Below, in pieces: positions 35,919-49,880 of a DNA stretch of 64,000 bases. The notes below the pieces were generated by a model, which saw nothing but the letters and a program-made list of their open reading frames with translations, was not told the DNA's origin and did not search any database. The position numbers and the translations under genes are program-made. The number at the start of each line of letters is the position of its first letter. Positions within the stretch are counted from its first letter, which is position 1. Source of the DNA: Paenibacillus sp. P25 (GTDB lineage Bacteria; Bacillota; Bacilli; Paenibacillales; NBRC-103111); the NCBI GenBank assembly GCA_024704175.1, contig CP085629.1, forward strand, positions 7,252,001 to 7,316,000. The letters run 5' to 3'.

Positions 35919-36443
35919 TTAATAAAGGATTAGGACGCGGTCGCCGGCATGTACCGGCGACCGCGCTGCGCTAAAGGGGATATTGTATCTAACAGATCGA
36001 TGACGGCGGTAATACATCCATACTGTAAGGCTTGCGGAAAGGAAGAGGATCTGCATTAAGGTGCGCGGAATCAATGCATCCTCCGGACTTGTCGCTAGGC
36101 CATTAATAGCTATATAAAGATTGGCAGGGAACATGGCAATCAGTAGAAGTGAGAGTCCGCCGGTCGCCCATGTAACAGTGGGATACCATAGTAAACCTAT
36201 GGCCCCGGCCAACTCCAGTACACCGGTAATTGTTACAATCAGGTCGGGATTTGGCAAGATAGGAGGAACCATTGCAATGATCTCCGTCCGCATATAAACG
36301 AAATGAACGGAGCCGGTTAAAATGAACATCGCTGCAAGGCCGCCTCGAAGCGCAACGGGCCATGGGCGCAAACGGCTGACCCCGGCAATTCCTGCAATGA
36401 GAATGACAACCGAGACGACAACGAGCACAATAAGGGGTTCCAT
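35919..36443 (-). CDS. DoxX-like membrane protein
   Basis: About 174 residues with five hydrophobic segments. GGLAAMFILTGSVHFVYMRTEIIAMVPPILP and ITGVLELAGAIGLLWYPTV match the DoxX/MauE-like superfamily. ATG at 36443 after GGAGG. The last codons overlap an inverted repeat (35936-35963) that may also end transcription. A MarR-type operator lies at 36473-36491, identical in design to one in front of the marR gene. Confidence 0.8.
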   Translation of the reverse strand: MEPLIVLVVVSVVILIAGIAGVSRLRPWPVALRGGLAAMFILTGSVHFVYMRTEIIAMVPPILPNPDLIVTITGVLELAGAIGLLWYPTVTWATGGLSLLLIAMFPANLYIAINGLATSPEDALIPRTLMQILFLSASLTVWMYYRRHRSVRYNIPFSAARSPVHAGDRVLILY

Positions 36444-36472
36444 AAAATACCTCCACAACATTAATTGTTAGT

Positions 36473-36491
36473 GTGTATAGATACTAAACAC
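36473..36491. promoter_or_regulatory. MarR operator copy 1 (DoxX promoter)
   Basis: GTGTATAG-ATA-CTAAACAC, an 8-3-8 near-perfect palindrome 30 bases upstream of the DoxX-like start. Same half-sites as at 36978-36996. Confidence 0.75.
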
Positions 36492-36512
36492 TTTATCCAA
36501 AAAAAGATGCTA

Positions 36513-36969
36513 TCATTTTCCAATTTGTTTTTCCAGCTGCATTAAAAAATCTTTAATAAATTGAACCTTATCGGCTGGAGCATCCCCTAATACTTCCACA
36601 ACCATTTTTTTGAATTGGTTCTGATAATCCAAATGGTGAGCGTATGCAATTTCACCTTTGGGGGGTTACCTGTAGAATCAACCTTGATTGGTTGCGGATA
36701 TCCTTTTCTTTTGTGATTAGCCCTTTCTGTTCGAGTTTTTTCAGTACTTGGGATATTGCGCCCTTCGTAACTCCACAACGTTCAGCCAACGCTGTAATAT
36801 GGATGCCTCTATGCTCTCTTATTTCATTAAGCGTATAGATCTCAGAATGAAATAAAGGCTCGCCAACACCATAATCTCTATTTTTTCTATCCTGTTTAGC
36901 GAACGTTTTGAGCACATCCAAGAGGAGGTTGCCAATTTTCTCTTTTGAAAGTTCATCATTATTCATCAT
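36513..36969 (-). CDS. MarR-family regulator (frameshifted)
   Basis: Winged-helix protein: SEIYTLNEIREHRGIHITAL, AERCGVTKGAISQVLKKLEQKGLITKE, RLILQVTPQ, continuing in the next frame with GEIAYAHHLDYQNQFKKMVV to the stop at 36513. Removing one C from the CCCCCC near 36663 joins the frames; about 151 residues. AT-rich compared with flanking genes. Its own promoter and that of the downstream DoxX-like gene share one operator, so it probably represses both. Confidence 0.85.
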
Positions 36970-36977
36970 AGAAGAAA

Positions 36978-36996
36978 GTGTATAGCGCCTAAACAC
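36978..36996. promoter_or_regulatory. MarR operator copy 2 (marR promoter)
   Basis: GTGTATAG-CGC-CTAAACAC just upstream of the marR start; half-sites identical to the copy at 36473-36491. Confidence 0.75.
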
Positions 36997-37158
36997 TATT
37001 GTCAAATGATTTTTTGAGTCGGATGCTTCAGTGTGCGAACGGGCGGGATAACGCAATATACATGTTACAGATTGTGGTAAAATATTGAAATAAACCAAGG
37101 TTAATGAGTGCATCACGTCTGATGAAAAGTGTTTTTTTAAAAGGGGAGATCAGATCAT

Positions 37159-37788
37159 ATGAGTATTTTTGAAAATGTTATTTCAAGTGAAGATGAACTA
37201 CGTTCTCTGTTAGGTTTCCCAAGCGAACTTGTACAAAATAAAGTCATTTCTCATTTAGACCAGCATTGCCTTGAATTTATCTCCAAGTCTCCATTTTTAG
37301 TAATGGCTACTTCAGATAACCAAGGGATGTGTGATGTTTCCCCTCGAGGTGATGCCCCTGGTTTTGTAGAAGTTCTGGATGAAACCCATATACTTATTCC
37401 AGAAAGACCAGGAAATCGAAAGTTAGATTCTTTGAGAAACATTTTATCAAACCCTAAAGTAGGGCTTGTTTTTATTATTCCAGGTTTAGAAGAAACATTA
37501 CGCATCAATGGGAATGCTTGCATCATTCGTGATGAAGATTTGTTAGAGCGGATGGAGGTTAACGGTAAAATACCTGTTGTAGGCATTGGGGTTGCAGTTG
37601 AAGAATGTTTCGTTCATTGTGCTAAAGCCTTTAAACGTTCAAATCTGTGGAATCCGCAAATGTGGTTGCATGAGGAAGGATTACCCAACATAGCAAAGAT
37701 GATAGCAGACCACGTAAAACTCCCTGGAATCGATGCTGAGAAAGTTGATAAAGCACTTCAAGATAGCTACTTAAATCGCTTATATTGA
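37159..37788 (+). CDS. Pyridoxamine 5'-phosphate oxidase-like FMN-binding protein
   Basis: A 209-residue split-barrel flavoprotein of the MSMEG_1061-like type: FISKSPFLVMATSDNQGMCDVSPRGDAPGF is diagnostic, with ILIPERPGNRKLDSLRNI and VGLVFIIPGLEETLRINGNA. Members bind FMN or F420; the substrate is unknown. Strongly AT-rich. GGGGAGATCAG precedes the ATG. Single gene at the left side of the AT-rich island. Confidence 0.88.
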   Translation: MSIFENVISSEDELRSLLGFPSELVQNKVISHLDQHCLEFISKSPFLVMATSDNQGMCDVSPRGDAPGFVEVLDETHILIPERPGNRKLDSLRNILSNPKVGLVFIIPGLEETLRINGNACIIRDEDLLERMEVNGKIPVVGIGVAVEECFVHCAKAFKRSNLWNPQMWLHEEGLPNIAKMIADHVKLPGIDAEKVDKALQDSYLNRLY

Positions 37789-37882
37789 ACCGGATGCTTC
37801 GCACTTTCAATATTTCAAGAATATCAGTCTTCCAACCAACGCCCCAGAATGTTCGAAGATTTTGCATGGATTAATAATAAGC

Positions 37883-37910
37883 TTGATAAATAAAAAGAGT
37901 TGTGTATAAT
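37883..37910 (+). promoter_or_regulatory. Promoter of guanidine riboswitch
   Basis: TTGATA (37883-37888), 16-base spacer, TATAAT (37905-37910), about 30 bases upstream of the riboswitch. Confidence 0.75.
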
Positions 37911-37940
37911 TTGAGTGAGAATTTGAATTAAAAATGTTAT

Positions 37941-38029
37941 CTAGGGTTCCGCGATTGCTAAATCGGCTGGTCCGAGAGATAACTCACAACCGATAGGTTG
38001 TGTCACGGAGGGATAAAAGCCCGGGAGAT
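37941..38029 (+). ncRNA. Guanidine-I riboswitch (ykkC/yxkD leader)
   Basis: The conserved blocks of the ykkC aptamer occur in order: CTAGGGTTCCG, CGGCTGGTCCGAGAG, and CACGGAGGGATAAAAGCC followed by CGGGAGA. The variable hairpin between them is ACAACCgatagGTTGT. Guanidinium binding prevents the downstream terminator and turns on guanidine exporters or carboxylases. Its natural targets, ykkC and ykkD, now lie 2.2 and 4 kb away because of two insertions. Confidence 0.95.
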
Positions 38030-38067
38030 GAACTGTTAACGACAGTTTGTTTCCTAGGCTTTTTTTA
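38018..38067 (+). terminator. Riboswitch-controlled terminator, interrupted by ISL3 insertion
   Basis: Stem AGCC-GGGA-AACTGT pairs with ACAGTT-TCC-GGCT, followed by seven T residues. The ascending strand overlaps the aptamer end, as in ykkC expression platforms. The ISL3 target duplication (38063-38070) lies within the T tract. Confidence 0.85.
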
Positions 38068-38135
38068 TTTGGCTCTTCGTAAAACTGTGTTGAAATAGAT
38101 ACTTTGTTCAAACTATATAAAATCGTAAAAGTGTG

Positions 38136-38163
38136 TTGAAATCACCTCCTAAAATAGTATAAT
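38136..38163 (+). promoter_or_regulatory. Transposon internal promoter
   Basis: TTGAAA (38136-38141), 16-base spacer, TATAAT (38158-38163). The -35 lies inside the internal copy of the terminal repeat, so transposase binding could autorepress the operon. Confidence 0.75.
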
Positions 38164-38187
38164 AGTAATAAAAAGGAGGATGAAAAA

Positions 38188-38568
38188 ATGGTAAGAGATA
38201 TTAAGTTTCGTGGGTGGGATACCCTCCATAAAACCATGACCACTAACCTTCATGATGATTACATCATTGGTGAATGGGCAAGAGACCCTAGATTCGTTGT
38301 CTTGCAATACACAGGGCTCAAGGACAAACAAGGCGTTGAGATATATGAGGGAGATGTTGTTGAAGTTACCGAGATGCCTAACAGCCCTGACGAACGACAC
38401 TATGTTGCGGAAATCATTTATAAAGATGCTTGTTTTTTGATCAAAGAATCAGGCAAGAGCGAAATACCATTAAGAGAGATTACTTACGAGCCTTATTCTA
38501 ACGGGTATCATCCATTGACATGCTCAGTCATCGGAAACAAATACGAAAACCCAGAGTTGATAGCCTAA
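38188..38568 (+). CDS. YopX-family protein (transposon passenger)
   Basis: A 126-residue YopX protein: KFRGWDTLHKTM at the N-terminus and VVLQYTGLKDKQGVEIYEGDVVEV are the family hallmarks. YopX proteins are common in Bacillus phages such as SPbeta; their function is unknown. AAGGAGG stands eight bases before the ATG. Its stop overlaps the next ATG (TAATG). Finding it between the ends of an ISL3 element is unusual. Confidence 0.9.
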   Translation: MVRDIKFRGWDTLHKTMTTNLHDDYIIGEWARDPRFVVLQYTGLKDKQGVEIYEGDVVEVTEMPNSPDERHYVAEIIYKDACFLIKESGKSEIPLREITYEPYSNGYHPLTCSVIGNKYENPELIA

Positions 38569-38867
38569 TGAACATAATCAAACTACCAAAATATCCATGT
38601 TCCTTTTGCAAGAAGAATGAAGCTACTCAGCTATGTGATTTCGTTGTCGGTTATGCCTGGACCAGCATGAAGGATGAAAAGGGACGAATGATCGGTCGCT
38701 ATCATGAAACTTGTAATAATCAGATTTGTAAATCGTGTGCAACGAATCATGCAGGATATGACCTCTGCCCTTCGTGCAATGAGCTGTACAAATTGATACA
38801 GAAAAAACGCGATAGGCGTATAGGGAACTTCCTTATTGATTTAGTGTCTGGCAGGGTTTCGCAATGA
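38568..38867 (+). CDS. Cys-rich zinc-finger-like protein (transposon passenger)
   Basis: About 99 residues with CSFCKKNEATQLC, CNNQICKSCATNH and LCPSCNELY, three CxxC-type pairs that could form two zinc sites. Similar small proteins occur in phages; I cannot name the family. The ATG overlaps the YopX stop, and its TGA overlaps the transposase ATG (ATGA), so all three are translationally coupled. Confidence 0.78.
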   Translation: MNIIKLPKYPCSFCKKNEATQLCDFVVGYAWTSMKDEKGRMIGRYHETCNNQICKSCATNHAGYDLCPSCNELYKLIQKKRDRRIGNFLIDLVSGRVSQ

Positions 38868-40173
38868 ACATACTGAACATCCCTTCACTGAAAGTCACCA
38901 AAACAGAGCTAAAAGATCATGGCTACGAAATATGGGCAGAGGTTGCGTATCCTCCAGACTTCTGCCCTAATTGTGGCTCCATGGAAGCGAAGTTCTCTAA
39001 GTTCGGAACCAAGCGGCAGTTATTCATGGATTTGCCTATGCACGGAAAGCGGGTAGGTATCATCATTAACCGCCAGCGTTATTTGTGCAAAAACTGTGGA
39101 TCAACCTTCCGTGAGATCCTCTGGGACATCGACGACGACCATATGTGTACCGTTCGCTTTACCGAGTACGTTCAAGAGCAATCGTTAAGGCGTACATTCA
39201 CCAGCATTGCAGATGAACTTGGAATAAGTGAAGGTACTGTGCGAAACATCTTCAACAAGTACATTGACTTCCTTGAAACATCTCATCAGTTTGTTACGCC
39301 AAGATGGTTGGGTATCGATGAAATCCATATACTCGGCAAACCCAGAGGCGTAATCGCCAATGTAGAAGAGAACGTCTTAGTTGATCTTCTGGTGGACCGC
39401 AATAAAGAGACCATTATACGCTATTTAAGCCATCTGCCTGACCGCGTAGGCGTTGAAATCGTCACGATGGATATGTGGCAACCTTACCGCGATGCAGTCC
39501 GCCAGACGCTTCCCAATGCCGTTATTGTCGTCGATAAGTTTCATGTCGTTCGAATGGCTAATCAAGCAGTCGAAACGATCCGCAAGAACATTCGCAAAGA
39601 ACTGGATGCAAAGCAACGCAGGCAGTTAAAGAATGACCGATTCTTGATGCTCAAACGCCGCAAGGACTTAACTCCAATGGAACAGATGATCCTTGAGACC
39701 TGGACGCTTAATTTCCCCGTCTCAAGCAAGCCTACGAGCTTAAAGAAGCGTTCTATGAGATATGGGATGCATCCGACGCAAAGGAAGCACAAGAGCGTTA
39801 CATAGCTTGGCAAGCATCCATTCCAGATGGAATGAAATCGGCATTTAGCGACATTATGAAGGCTTATAGCAACTGGCATCATGAGATCAATAACTACTTC
39901 ACGCATAGGGTTACAAACGCCTATACAGAATCCATAAACGGCTTAACACGGGTGGTGAACCGTATGGGACGTGGTTACTCCTTCAAAGCTCTAAGAGCCA
40001 AAATGCTGTATTCAGAAGGATTACACAAAAAAGCCAAAGTCAACTACAAGAAATCAATTGAACTGATGTACAGCATGTTGGGCAATTCGTTTAAGGAGAA
40101 TGAGGAGCAAACCGTCATCCTTGGTGCGGACATTTCAATCCTCACCAAACGTATCGAAGAGGGGTCGTTATGA
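38864..40173 (+). CDS. ISL3-family transposase (frameshifted)
   Basis: N-terminal zinc ribbon (CPNCGS ... CKNCGSTF), HTH (DELGISEGTVRNIFNKY), then the DDE core: Asp in WLGIDEIHI, Asp in VTMDMWQPYRDAV followed by VVDKFHVVRMANQ, and the Glu in NAYTESINGL of the second frame. Adding one C to CCCC at 39715-39718 restores a single protein of about 436 residues, normal for ISL3. If the shift is real, the copy is inactive. Confidence 0.9.
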
Positions 40174-40268
40174 CCCTTTTTCAATACACTTTTACGAATA
40201 CCCTTTTATTTTTGCTGCATTTGGAATGACTAAGTGCAGCGTAATTTTAAAGAGGAGAGTGAAAAGAA

Positions 40269-40604
40269 ATGAACAAAACTTGGTTGTCCGTAATTATTGC
40301 TGCTTTATTTGAGGTGGGATGGGTCATTGGATTGAAACATGCAAATGGGTTTATGGAATGGGGAGCTACAACGATTGCTATTATTGTAAGTTTCATAATG
40401 ATGATTATGGCTTCTCGCTCACTTCCTGTCGGTACGGTTTATGCTGTTTTTGTTGGCCTGGGTACAGCCGGTACAGTATTAGCGGACATCATTTTGTTCG
40501 CCGCTCCAGTTCAAATAGGCAAGATGGTGCTTATCGGTACTCTGTTATTGGGTGTTATGGGGCTAAAAATGTTAAGCCAAGATAAGAAAAAAGAGGTGGC
40601 GTAA
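40269..40604 (+). CDS. ykkC: SMR-family guanidinium/multidrug exporter subunit YkkC
   Basis: A 111-residue four-helix SMR protein. The membrane Glu essential for proton-coupled export is E15 (AALFEVGW). Motifs SLPVGTVYAVFVGLGTAGTV and GVMGLKML are typical. YkkC and YkkD form a paired transporter under guanidine-I control in Bacillus. AGAGGAG precedes the ATG. It was originally directly downstream of the riboswitch; an ISL3 element now intervenes. Its stop is three bases before the original ykkD start. Confidence 0.93.
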   Translation: MNKTWLSVIIAALFEVGWVIGLKHANGFMEWGATTIAIIVSFIMMIMASRSLPVGTVYAVFVGLGTAGTVLADIILFAAPVQIGKMVLIGTLLLGVMGLKMLSQDKKKEVA

Positions 40605-40613
40605 CATATGGAT

Positions 40614-42075
40614 TAAACTGGACCCCTTGTCAAGGACACTTGAAAAAGAGGATTAAGCAGCACTCAAGAGATGATTCCTGTATTGCACAGGAGTCATCTT
40701 TTTTAATCCCCATTGGTACCTGTAGTGGTTGTAGTAGCGAATGTATCGCTTAATTTCACGTTCTAACTCTGCGAGATTCTTGCAGTCCCGGCTTTTTACA
40801 TGGTCTTTCATATGACCGAAGAAAGATTCTTGAGGGGCATTATCCCAGCAGTTTCCTCGCCTGGACATGGATTGTCCGAGCCCTTTGGATTTTAATAGAT
40901 TCTGGTAGATAGGGCTGGTGTAGTGGTCGCCTTGATCGGAATGGATGAAGGCCTCCTTATGGAGCTTAAAACGCTTCTGTTTCATTAGCGGCTCCACGGT
41001 TTCAGTGGCCAGAGGCAGATGAAGGGTGGGGGATAGATTTTGAGCCAGAAGCTCACCTGTGGATGCATCCAGAATGGTCGAAAAATACGCCATCTGAGAA
41101 TTGCCGTACGGAAGGTATGTAATATCGGTTAGCAGTGCGAGGCCGGGAATGCCTTTCTTGAAATCCCTCTGCAGCATGTTTTCAAGTGTGCGGTGCTCTT
41201 GAGTAGCCTTGGCCATCCGGCGGTAAGGATTCGCTCTCCGATGCGGGCATACAAGGTTAAACTTGCGCATCAGTCTTCGAATCCGCTTCAGATTGTAAAC
41301 CGTATGGTACTCCTGCTCCAGGGTCATCTTAATGGACCGAGAGCCCTTCTTAAAGCCCCGCTTATGAAACGCCTTTTTGATCAGGTCGCCTGCCTTCTCG
41401 TCCGCCTGCTTACGCGCCAGTCGTTTGTCTGCGGAACGGAGGTAGTTATAATATCCCGAACGAGACACGCCAAGCAGGTCACAAAAATAACGTGTCATTC
41501 GCTCACGGCCATTCTTCACCACATGCCGGATCAGCTCAAAACACTCACTCGGGTTTAGGTCTTTTCCGTTTGCTAACAGCCTCCTTTCGTTCTTGTCTAA
41601 CTTTTTTACGTATGCCAGTTGCTCCTCCAGGAGCCTGATTTTGGCCTCCTGCTTCGCGATGATCTCCTCTTTGGACAAGGGGCGTTTTGAAGGACGCAGG
41701 GCGGCTTCCTTGCGCGAGTCCGCCAATCCGATGATACCGTCCTTCTCGTACGCTTTCTTCCACCGGTCGGCACATTGCTCCACCCGTTTCATTCCGAGCA
41801 TCTCTACATCGAATCCGTTCGCTTCGAAAATCTCCCTGGGTGTCCGGCCCAGTAAATATTGATCGATAAACAGACGCTTGAATTCATCGGCATAAGTGAT
41901 CGACTTCTCGCTTACCCGCAGAACATATGGGTTTGCTGATAATTGTTCCCGTTCGCTTGGATTAAAATGTTTCTTGCTCATTTTGCCCGCCCCCTATAGC
42001 TAATTCCAGTATACAAAAAGGCCCCCACAGCCTAAACACTTTTTTCAAAGTGTCTAGACTATGGGGACCAGTTTA
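40614..42075 (-). mobile_element. IS3-family insertion sequence in codon 2-3 of ykkD
   Basis: 1,462 bases. Ends are TAAACTGGACCCC on the left and the complement of TAAACTGGTCCCC on the right, with similarity extending to about 30 bases (GTC..GACACTT-GAAAAA). GAT is duplicated at 40611-40613 and 42076-42078. Left of it the original ykkD start reads ATG GAT and then an immediate TAA from the IS. The element lies in opposite orientation to ykkCD. Confidence 0.92.
40653..41981 (-). CDS. IS3-family transposase, single fused ORF
   Basis: A 442-residue protein combining the HTH/OrfA part (N-terminal, with leucine-zipper-like RLLEEQLAYVKKL) and the OrfB rve catalytic part. Catalytic residues: D286 (LALLTDITYL), D349 (FIHSDQGDHY) and E385 (NAPQESFFGHMK), a DD(35)E arrangement. 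The GNCWDNAPQESFF motif is a family hallmark. Intact, so the element could be active. Confidence 0.94.
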   Translation of the reverse strand: MSKKHFNPSEREQLSANPYVLRVSEKSITYADEFKRLFIDQYLLGRTPREIFEANGFDVEMLGMKRVEQCADRWKKAYEKDGIIGLADSRKEAALRPSKRPLSKEEIIAKQEAKIRLLEEQLAYVKKLDKNERRLLANGKDLNPSECFELIRHVVKNGRERMTRYFCDLLGVSRSGYYNYLRSADKRLARKQADEKAGDLIKKAFHKRGFKKGSRSIKMTLEQEYHTVYNLKRIRRLMRKFNLVCPHRRANPYRRMAKATQEHRTLENMLQRDFKKGIPGLALLTDITYLPYGNSQMAYFSTILDASTGELLAQNLSPTLHLPLATETVEPLMKQKRFKLHKEAFIHSDQGDHYTSPIYQNLLKSKGLGQSMSRRGNCWDNAPQESFFGHMKDHVKSRDCKNLAELEREIKRYIRYYNHYRYQWGLKKMTPVQYRNHLLSAA

Positions 42076-42387
42076 GATTGGGTATTTCTTGTTTTAGCGG
42101 GGCTATTTGAAATGTTCGGAGTCCTAATGATTAATAAGTTGAACAAAGATCGTAACGCAGCATCGCTCCTCCTATTGCTTACAGGCTTTGGATCAAGCTT
42201 TTTGTTCTTGTCTTTAGCAATGAAAACCCTGCCGATGGGAACCGCATATGCCGTATGGACAGGAATAGGAGCATCAGGAGGAGCTATTCTCGGAATGATC
42301 TTTTATGGCGAACCAAGAAATATCCTTAGAATTGTATTTATTGCCATGGTGCTTGGATCTGCTGTTGGCTTGAAGCTAATCAGCTAA
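42061..42387 (+). CDS. ykkD: SMR-family exporter subunit YkkD with IS-derived N-terminus
   Basis: Four-helix SMR protein of 108 residues; membrane Glu in GLFEMFGV, then PMGTAYAVWTGIGASGGAILG. The original protein began M-D-W-V-F at 40608. The IS3 element split codon 2 from codon 3 (GAT duplicated); its right end supplies ATGGGGACCAGTTTA, so the new protein begins M-G-T-S-L-D-W-V-F in frame. No ribosome binding site precedes the new ATG and the transcript from ykkC is broken, so expression is doubtful. Confidence 0.9.
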   Translation: MGTSLDWVFLVLAGLFEMFGVLMINKLNKDRNAASLLLLLTGFGSSFLFLSLAMKTLPMGTAYAVWTGIGASGGAILGMIFYGEPRNILRIVFIAMVLGSAVGLKLIS

Positions 42388-43040
42388 ATTTTTATCTTTA
42401 TCATAATTTGGTGAGATGCTAGAGTGTGTTAATATGCGTCCAAATGCTTTTTTGGTAAGCGGCATAAAGCAATTAAGTATTAGCCCCCTAAACAAACGGT
42501 TAGTAAAGTTCCAACGCCGATAGGTCCATTTAAAATCAATGCCATGATCAAGAATACGAGGTAAATGAAGGTTCTTGAAATAAATAAATTGGTTCCGGTT
42601 AATTCTTGGATGATTAATGTTAATCGGTCAATTGGAATCGGTGCAACATTTGTGTGTAAGTATGTGGAGGTCCCTAATCCTATAACAACTAAACCGATCC
42701 CGAAGCAAACAGCTTTGCTGTACCCTAATTCAGGCGTTATCCAATGGTGCAATAAGAAAAGCCACATATCAATGCCAATACCCGTAATAAATGCTGTTAA
42801 CAACCCCGAAACTTCGGGCTTTTGTCTTTTTAAAAGCGCATTACAACATATCAATATCAAAGCAATAATGATTTCCCAACTTCCCACAGTCAGCCCCACA
42901 TTTACGGACAATCCAACCAATAATGCATCAAAAGGTGAAGTTCCAAGGCCGGATTGTATCGTGAAAGAAATCCCAAGGGTTAGTATGATAATTCCTAGTA
43001 CATAAAACACATATTTCACTTTACTCAGCCTCTTTTTCAA
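42376..43040 (-). CDS. YczE/YitT-like membrane protein (frameshifted near C-terminus)
   Basis: About 220 residues with five hydrophobic segments: ILTLGISFTIQSGLGTSPFDAL, GTSTYLHTNVAPIPIDRLTL and GPIGVGTLLTVCLGG. The open frame stops at 42480, but adding one G to the GGGGG there continues with LILNCFMPLTKKAFG to a stop at 42376, as in YczE homologues. Divergent from a marR gene. It would overlap the end of ykkD by about 12 bases, convergently. Confidence 0.82.
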
Positions 43041-43133
43041 TTTTTTATTGCAAATACAACAAAATAAAGTTAAATTTAATGTATACCGTTTTTATTGCAT
43101 TTGCAACAAAAATGATGCGTTAAGGAGTAAAGG
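43041..43133. promoter_or_regulatory. Divergent operator region of yczE-like and marR
   Basis: Two related elements: TTGCAAATACAACAAAA near 43047 and TTGCATTTGCAACAAAA near 43096. The second contains TTGCA-ttTGCAA, a palindrome suited to a MarR dimer, the first a degenerate copy. Confidence 0.55.
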
Positions 43134-44872
<1,739 letters not shown>

Positions 44873-49560: not shown

Positions 49561-49880
49561 TATTAATTTACTGGGCGGAGAAACCACCAGACCCATCATC
49601 CGAGGGCGGAGCCACGGCGGGATTCCTGCTGCGGCTCCTTTGTCATTAGAACCAAAAATAACGAGGTGCCGGAACTTATTATTCGTTCTTACAATACCCC
49701 CAGTTTTCTTTAGGAACTCTTTAGCGATACCGACATGATTCGCGTTTACCGCCAGGCTTGTATATAGTAATATGGATTCAAACCAAAGTGGGCGCGATGA
49801 ATTCGAATATGTACATTGGGCACTTGTATTCGAGGGAGCGAGTAGTGCAACCGACCATCTTTCGAATAGGAGAGAGAAGG
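49561..49880. other. 320-base gap, nothing recognised
   Basis: No ORF with family similarity, no palindrome of note. Contains the leader of the small ORF at 49881. Confidence 0.5.

Follow-up and report, generated by a model that had tools for sequence, protein, structure and literature searches.

A window of 64,000 nucleotides from Paenibacillus sp. P25 (positions 7,252,001-7,316,000 in a single-contig genome that is 8.48 Mb long and whose completeness is estimated at 84.5%) holds a guanidine-I (ykkC) riboswitch and the genes ykkC and ykkD for two small multidrug resistance (SMR) exporter subunits, a locus of the Bacillus subtilis ykkCD type. The order along the plus strand was promoter-like site, guanidine-I aptamer, terminator hairpin, ISL3-family element, ykkC, IS3-family element and the remaining part of ykkD (Table 1), i.e., the native guanidine-I/ykkCD operon is split by two independent, unrelated insertion sequences (ISs). 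The original prediction for this stretch had described the same layout, which was confirmed; its description was right and careful.

Each component was identified above its family threshold: the aptamer exceeded the RF00442 gathering score (88 vs 63 bits) over the full model (1-107); the Multi_Drug_Res domain (PF00893) was found in both exporter genes (67.6 and 91.5 bits vs 23.7); and the IS3 transposase scored 274.8 bits against NF033516 (cut-off 160). The family domains PF01610, PF14690 and PF13542 were confirmed in the ISL3 transposase. A single open frame of 442 aa encodes the IS3 transposase, two frames being usual for IS3 elements according to the available part of PMC1525189.

Subtraction of the ISL3 element and one copy of its target-site duplication (TSD) placed the aptamer motif GGTCCGAGAG 159 nt before the ykkC ATG, a distance of 157-163 nt in the eight relatives shown; inverted repeats like the leader hairpin at 40213-40241 were also seen by eye in these eight relatives. 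The leader of 83 bases from terminator to ATG that had been claimed was not recovered, as we counted 66 nt to the ATG from the end of the stem and 98 nt from that of the aptamer match. On the other side of ykkC, the claimed spacing of 3 bases was found between the ykkC stop and the native ykkD ATG.

The uninterrupted operon, which the original prediction had proposed to look for in related genomes, was found among the best 80 of at least 537 named loci in a YkkC similarity scan. In 79 of the 80, ykkD lay directly 3' of ykkC with gaps of -4 to +3 bases, and 20 had the same 3-base gap as the window; at one locus (L075) a ykkD match was not called, and the bases past its ykkC stop resemble those of L072. 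The first 20 loci were given to Rfam, and each had a guanidine-I match over the threshold whose end lay 91-108 nt before ykkC; the literal aptamer motif lay within 700 nt upstream of ykkC in 71 of the 80. Together with the duplications flanking both elements, these loci bear out the claim of two independent insertions into an otherwise normal operon.

Both elements have close copies elsewhere in the genome: i) a twin of the ISL3 element (L004; G000:C1:22366-24498) is identical over 2133 bp, and a third copy (C1:2993555-2995961) is 94% identical over 1339 bp and differs in its inner part; ii) four more full IS3 copies are 99.8-99.9% identical to that of the window, along with one diverged remnant (~70%). 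Since copies of both are identical or near-identical elsewhere in the genome, the two insertions are recent. The IS3 target duplications were GAT in the window and CTC, GAC and TAA in three other copies; for copy L011 a CTTC duplication was read by eye, where a 3-base comparison gave TTC and CTT.

Table 1. Features of the interrupted ykkCD locus (window coordinates; free energies in kcal/mol)
Feature	Position	Strand	Evidence
Sigma-70-like promoter, TTGATA-16-TATAAT	37883..37910	+	11/12 consensus match; lead only
Guanidine-I (ykkC) riboswitch aptamer	37930..38029	+	RF00442, 88 bits, E 2.1e-14
Predicted riboswitch terminator hairpin, then T-tract	38017..38061	+	-25.1, z -6.57; overlaps aptamer 3' end
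ISL3 TSD, left copy TTTTATTT, within terminator T-tract	38063..38070	+	
ISL3-family element, 2133 bp, with phage-type passenger genes	38071..40203	+	ends 18/22, TSD 8/8
ISL3 passenger, YopX-family protein	38188..38568	+	PF09643, E 1.9e-19
ISL3 passenger, small cysteine-rich protein	38568..38867	+	phrog_26165, E 1.4e-47
ISL3 transposase, two pieces in different frames	38864..40173 (38864-39805, 39832-40173)	+	DDE_Tnp_ISL3 in both
Terminator-like hairpin and T-run at ISL3 3' end, facing ykkC	40156..40182	+	-16.4, z -5.36
ISL3 TSD, right copy TTTTATTT	40204..40211	+	
Native hairpin in ykkC leader, 3' of riboswitch terminator	40213..40241	+	simple scan; 40204-40268 folds at -18.3, z -3.95
ykkC, SMR exporter subunit, open frame	40269..40604	+	PF00893
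Native ykkD ATG and codon 2 (GAT, left TSD copy), severed from the remainder	40608..40613	+	
IS3-family element, 1462 bp; transposase 40653-41981 on the minus strand	40614..42075	-	TSD GAT
Terminator-like hairpin and T-run within IS3, between ykkC and ykkD	40666..40702	+	-21.7, z -5.39
IS3-end hairpin	42020..42069	.	minus -40.6, z -9.82; plus -22.4, z -4.13; plus includes ATG 42061
ykkD frame, open from IS3-end ATG at 42061; five IS-encoded codons, native codons 42076-42387	42061..42387	+	PF00893, E 4.8e-26

Origin of the operon and predicted effects on its expression

The operon appears to be accessory. Of 25 genus genomes, 9 carried a guanidine-I riboswitch above the cut-off, as did 25 of 60 relatives, and YkkC-like proteins (E up to 1e-15) occurred in 20 of the 25 genus genomes, own genome included. 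Among the matches listed, the window YkkC was 90% identical to that of Paenibacillus plantiphilus, vs a maximum of 62% elsewhere in its own genus. In a tree of 104 rows (23 from the genus), it fell in a supported set of 59 rows (97/86) without own-genus rows, grouping with other Paenibacillus. Moreover, the GC content of ykkC and ykkD is 42%, vs 53% for the window, and all but one of the eight 1-kb bins between 36 and 44 kb are below 47%. Of three flanking proteins, only that at 42480-43040 was found near ykkCD in relatives (4 of the 80 named loci, flanks of up to 3 kb). An operon of this composition and affiliation was likely acquired horizontally. The low-GC stretch at 36000-44000, as a whole a likely acquired segment, also holds two MarR-type regulators and a PNPOx-type flavoprotein beside ykkCD.

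The claim that guanidine export is dispensable here is plausible in the light of the patchy riboswitch and the place of YkkC outside its own genus. The substrate itself, guanidinium, would be assigned to YkkC/YkkD through their association with the riboswitch. A second SMR gene pair (C1:4679747-4680354), 43% and 37.5% identical to YkkC and YkkD, had no Rfam match above threshold in the 10 kb around it. A candidate second guanidine switch (L002; G000:C1:2387944-2388052) was rejected: it scored 51.9 bits, below the cut-off, and its neighbours resemble, by eye, a xanthine phosphoribosyltransferase and a purine permease. Weak guanidine-I matches of 33-39 bits recur across the genus.

The guanidine-I riboswitch is described as an ON switch that prevents a terminator (PMC12186494, available part). 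In the window, the ISL3 element entered the T-tract of the riboswitch terminator, and the genes of that element, with a terminator-like hairpin, now separate the switch from ykkC. The IS3 element entered directly behind the ykkD start codon, and a second terminator-like hairpin came with it to stand between ykkC and ykkD. Because each element presents such a hairpin to the export genes, regulated co-expression of ykkC and ykkD is probably lost. Neither hairpin (40156-40182 and 40666-40702) was on the list of a simple scan. Guanidine would no longer turn on ykkC, and would at most boost transcription into the ISL3 passenger genes. As to ykkD, the sole ATG of its frame sits in the plus-strand hairpin of the IS3 end, and no Shine-Dalgarno sequence was seen by eye for this IS-supplied start. 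We infer that ykkD is nearly silent and that the paired transporter is not made under regulation. The locus had been called broken, a word that fits its regulation and co-transcription and does not fit its reading frames, both of which are open.

Target sites of the two elements

The target sites of the IS3 group were compared in the own genome and among homologues. An order-wide search of 392 genomes drawn from a larger group, with two candidates scored per genome, yielded 33 IS3 matches outside the own genome, in 26 genomes. Sixteen homologues that were near-full-length with both flanks uncut were scored; 12 loci (partial or with cut flanks) and five rows without loci were excluded. All four of the other own copies lay in palindromes of an A-tract and a T-tract with perfect arms of 8-11 bp, a structure found at 0.04% of 25,530 sampled positions. 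Among the homologues, arms of at least 7 bp with an A-tract were present at 7 of the 16 sites vs 0.5% of 8640 positions in their own flanks, and arms of at least 7 bp alone at 8 of 16 vs a background of 4.2%. A stricter rule, which also required two G/C pairs, retained three of the four own sites and 7 of the 16 homologue sites, i.e., 10 of the 20 sites other than that of the window; its background, taken at noncoding positions up to 120 nt behind a stop, was 2.7% of 2313 positions (own genome) and 1.1% of 787 (homologue flanks). An A-tract half-site on either side was found at 15 of 21 sites, window included, vs 1.2% in the own background, and at the window site it is the left one that is present, with a G after an A6 tract in the last ykkC codons. 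Insertions in predicted terminator hairpins were well above background for the group, the window site not being among them. The comparison shows that this IS3 group favours terminator-like palindromes.

One of the two elements thus belongs to a group with a leaning towards gene-end stop signals, so the double hit needs no special pressure against export. Our literature search, incomplete in full texts, turned up no IS3-family group said to home on terminators, and the available part of PMC6211511 holds nothing on target choice at terminators.

For the ISL3 element, the window copy (TSD TTTTATTT) sits in a T-tract directly behind a hairpin (z -6.6), and so does the copy of G023 (TSD TTTTTTTC; hairpin z -3.0). 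Ends with a full duplication were found for two distant homologues only, from which no general claim is drawn. A literature search on ISL3, terminator and duplication gave no match, and plasmid searches returned no place covering 80% of the ISL3 or the IS3 element.

The close ISL3 copies differ in cargo and in setting. The L004 twin lacks a target duplication; flanked by TTTTTGTA and ACAAAAAG, a near-inverted pair, it may have been through a rearrangement. Passengers vary among copies with the same ends and a related transposase: the YopX-family and cysteine-rich genes are carried in the window, in the twin and in G023, while copy L005 (1501-3907) instead bears an AAA ATPase in two frames (PF00004, phrog_3757). 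The small cysteine-rich passenger of the window (38568-38867) matched no Pfam family at E up to 0.001. The transposase is split at an identical place in all three own copies and is a single open frame in a relative (L161, 1501-3634); the split copies may have been mobilised in trans, or the split may be a systematic sequence error. Heptamers of slippery form are the rule at sites of -1 frameshifting, and one lies at the split; a programmed -1 frameshift was therefore considered, and was set aside on account of the unbroken frame in L161. Given that completeness is 84.5%, an indel error repeated systematically is as likely as a programmed frameshift.

Alternative readings

We consider it probable, at about two chances in three, that two unrelated ISs recently struck a guanidine-I/ykkCD operon, itself probably of horizontal origin, and that the hits come from the landing habits of these elements and the expendability of the operon, not from a selected loss. 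Several observations weigh against this reading or narrow it. On the target side, the window IS3 site fails the palindrome tests (best arm 4; no match to the strict rule) and has the left A-tract half-site only; the half-site rule, the rule of arms of at least 7 bp and the strict rule were all fixed after the sites had been viewed; and an energy-based duplex score did not separate the five IS3 sites from background (fractions as good or better 0.06 to 0.97), a failure that we put down to the GC-rich background. The arm-length tests with A- and T-tract conditions, that of the own copies included, took the place of this score once sites had been seen. As to the ISL3 element, at copy L005, inserted at CCTTAATT, no stable hairpin is formed (z +0.9), copy L004 lies, without duplication, ~25 nt past a strong hairpin, and the two distant elements with full 8-bp duplications lie outside T-tracts; a T-tract preference, seen in two of four close copies, is suggestive only. 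Site preference explains the ISL3 hit and the IS3 hit only in part. On the side of origin, the YkkC tree, built on 113 columns, resolves poorly and leaves many forks open, and GC stays at 43-50% in most bins out to 55 kb, so that the low-GC stretch has no sharp right edge. Finally, a promoter-like site within the IS3 element (plus strand, 41425-41452, 10/12) might drive ykkD, and a single genome does not distinguish drift from selection for loss.

Three other explanations of the locus were weighed. Rather than being silenced, the export genes could have been rewired, with promoters within the ISs, or read-through, providing for expression of ykkC and ykkD, and with the ATG of the IS3 end as the ykkD start. 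This would fit the two open frames, the in-frame ATG, the ISL3 genes running in the same direction as ykkC, and promoter-like sites in the ISL3 leader (38136-38163, 11/12) and in the IS3 element. Yet a terminator-like hairpin stands before each gene, the new ykkD start lies within a hairpin of its own, and the promoter scan listed no plus-strand site in 40204-40268 or 41453-42075; promoter-like sites were no commoner than chance (8 found vs 8.9 in shuffles). We regard rewiring as unlikely. That this lineage gained from losing guanidine export, with both insertions fixed by selection, was one of two options in the original prediction; it is not supported and appears more doubtful still. A short operon struck twice independently, with its regulation probably uncoupled each time, would speak for it, as would the window IS3 site, which is not a full terminator palindrome and is not fully accounted for by preference; on the other hand, there is a single genome, both frames are open, site preference is strong in the IS3 group, the target of the ISL3 copy is a terminator T-tract, the operon looks like an expendable newcomer, and a second hit would have been cheap once the first had silenced the operon. 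An assembly artefact, in which a chimeric join at IS repeats produced the layout, is the least credible explanation: the completeness of 84.5% is low for a single contig and some split frames make base-level errors likely, but the 8-bp and 3-bp duplications match and the flanks of each element match contiguous operons of relatives.

Under the preferred reading of landing preference and expendability, the locus itself is an ordinary case in which ISs recently disrupted a known operon, and it cautions against inferring adaptive loss from clustered insertions. The preference of the IS3 group is the more interesting part. A broader proposal, to which we would give somewhat less than even odds, is that a Bacillales group of the IS3 family homes on intrinsic terminators, that the terminators of riboswitches and attenuators are standing landing pads, and that such leader hot spots uncouple switches without selection. 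If some IS groups do seek intrinsic terminators, riboswitch leader terminators would be predictable weak points of regulation, and counts of independent hits would need a correction for target preference before selection is claimed.

Two further features of the window lie apart from the operon: a cyclic di-GMP-II riboswitch aptamer at 49782-49865 (66.4 bits), and a possible frame-split GNAT acetyltransferase at 43609-44195, with a Pfam match in the second piece only, whose split may be another base-level assembly error.

Relation to known systems

With guanidine-I/paired SMR (Gdx-type) systems the locus shares an aptamer over the Rfam cut-off, a terminator platform and tandem SMR genes; it differs in that the switch, ykkC and ykkD are separated by two hairpin-bearing ISs. 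Paired SMR heterodimers are described in PMC9574504, the available part of which does not name YkkC. Zn-ribbon, helix-turn-helix and DDE domains and the 8-bp duplication are those of the ISL3 family, from which the present element differs in phage-type passengers that vary among copies and in a transposase frame split in three own copies.

The site choice of the IS3 group has two counterparts in the literature. IS1272/TnSha1 (IS1182 family) prefers hairpins, several of them confirmed terminators (PMC4923244, available part). It is reported to cut blunt in the stem and to delete part of its target, whereas the element here belongs to the IS3 family and makes 3-4 bp duplications; at those sites that conform to the palindrome rules, the element lies between the palindrome arms, and a blunt cut with deletion was not found. 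The IS3 element may thus work like IS1272 in its choice of target, yet it is not filed with it. Within the IS3 family, IS1397, ISKpn1 and ISPsy8 are reported, in the available part of PMC1525189, to insert into repetitive extragenic palindromic (REP) sequences, and share with the present group the choice of palindromic extragenic DNA. In contrast to the targets of these REP-seeking elements, those of the group described here share an architecture of A-tract and T-tract as in terminators, and no common repeat was noticed among them, no dedicated repeat search having been made.

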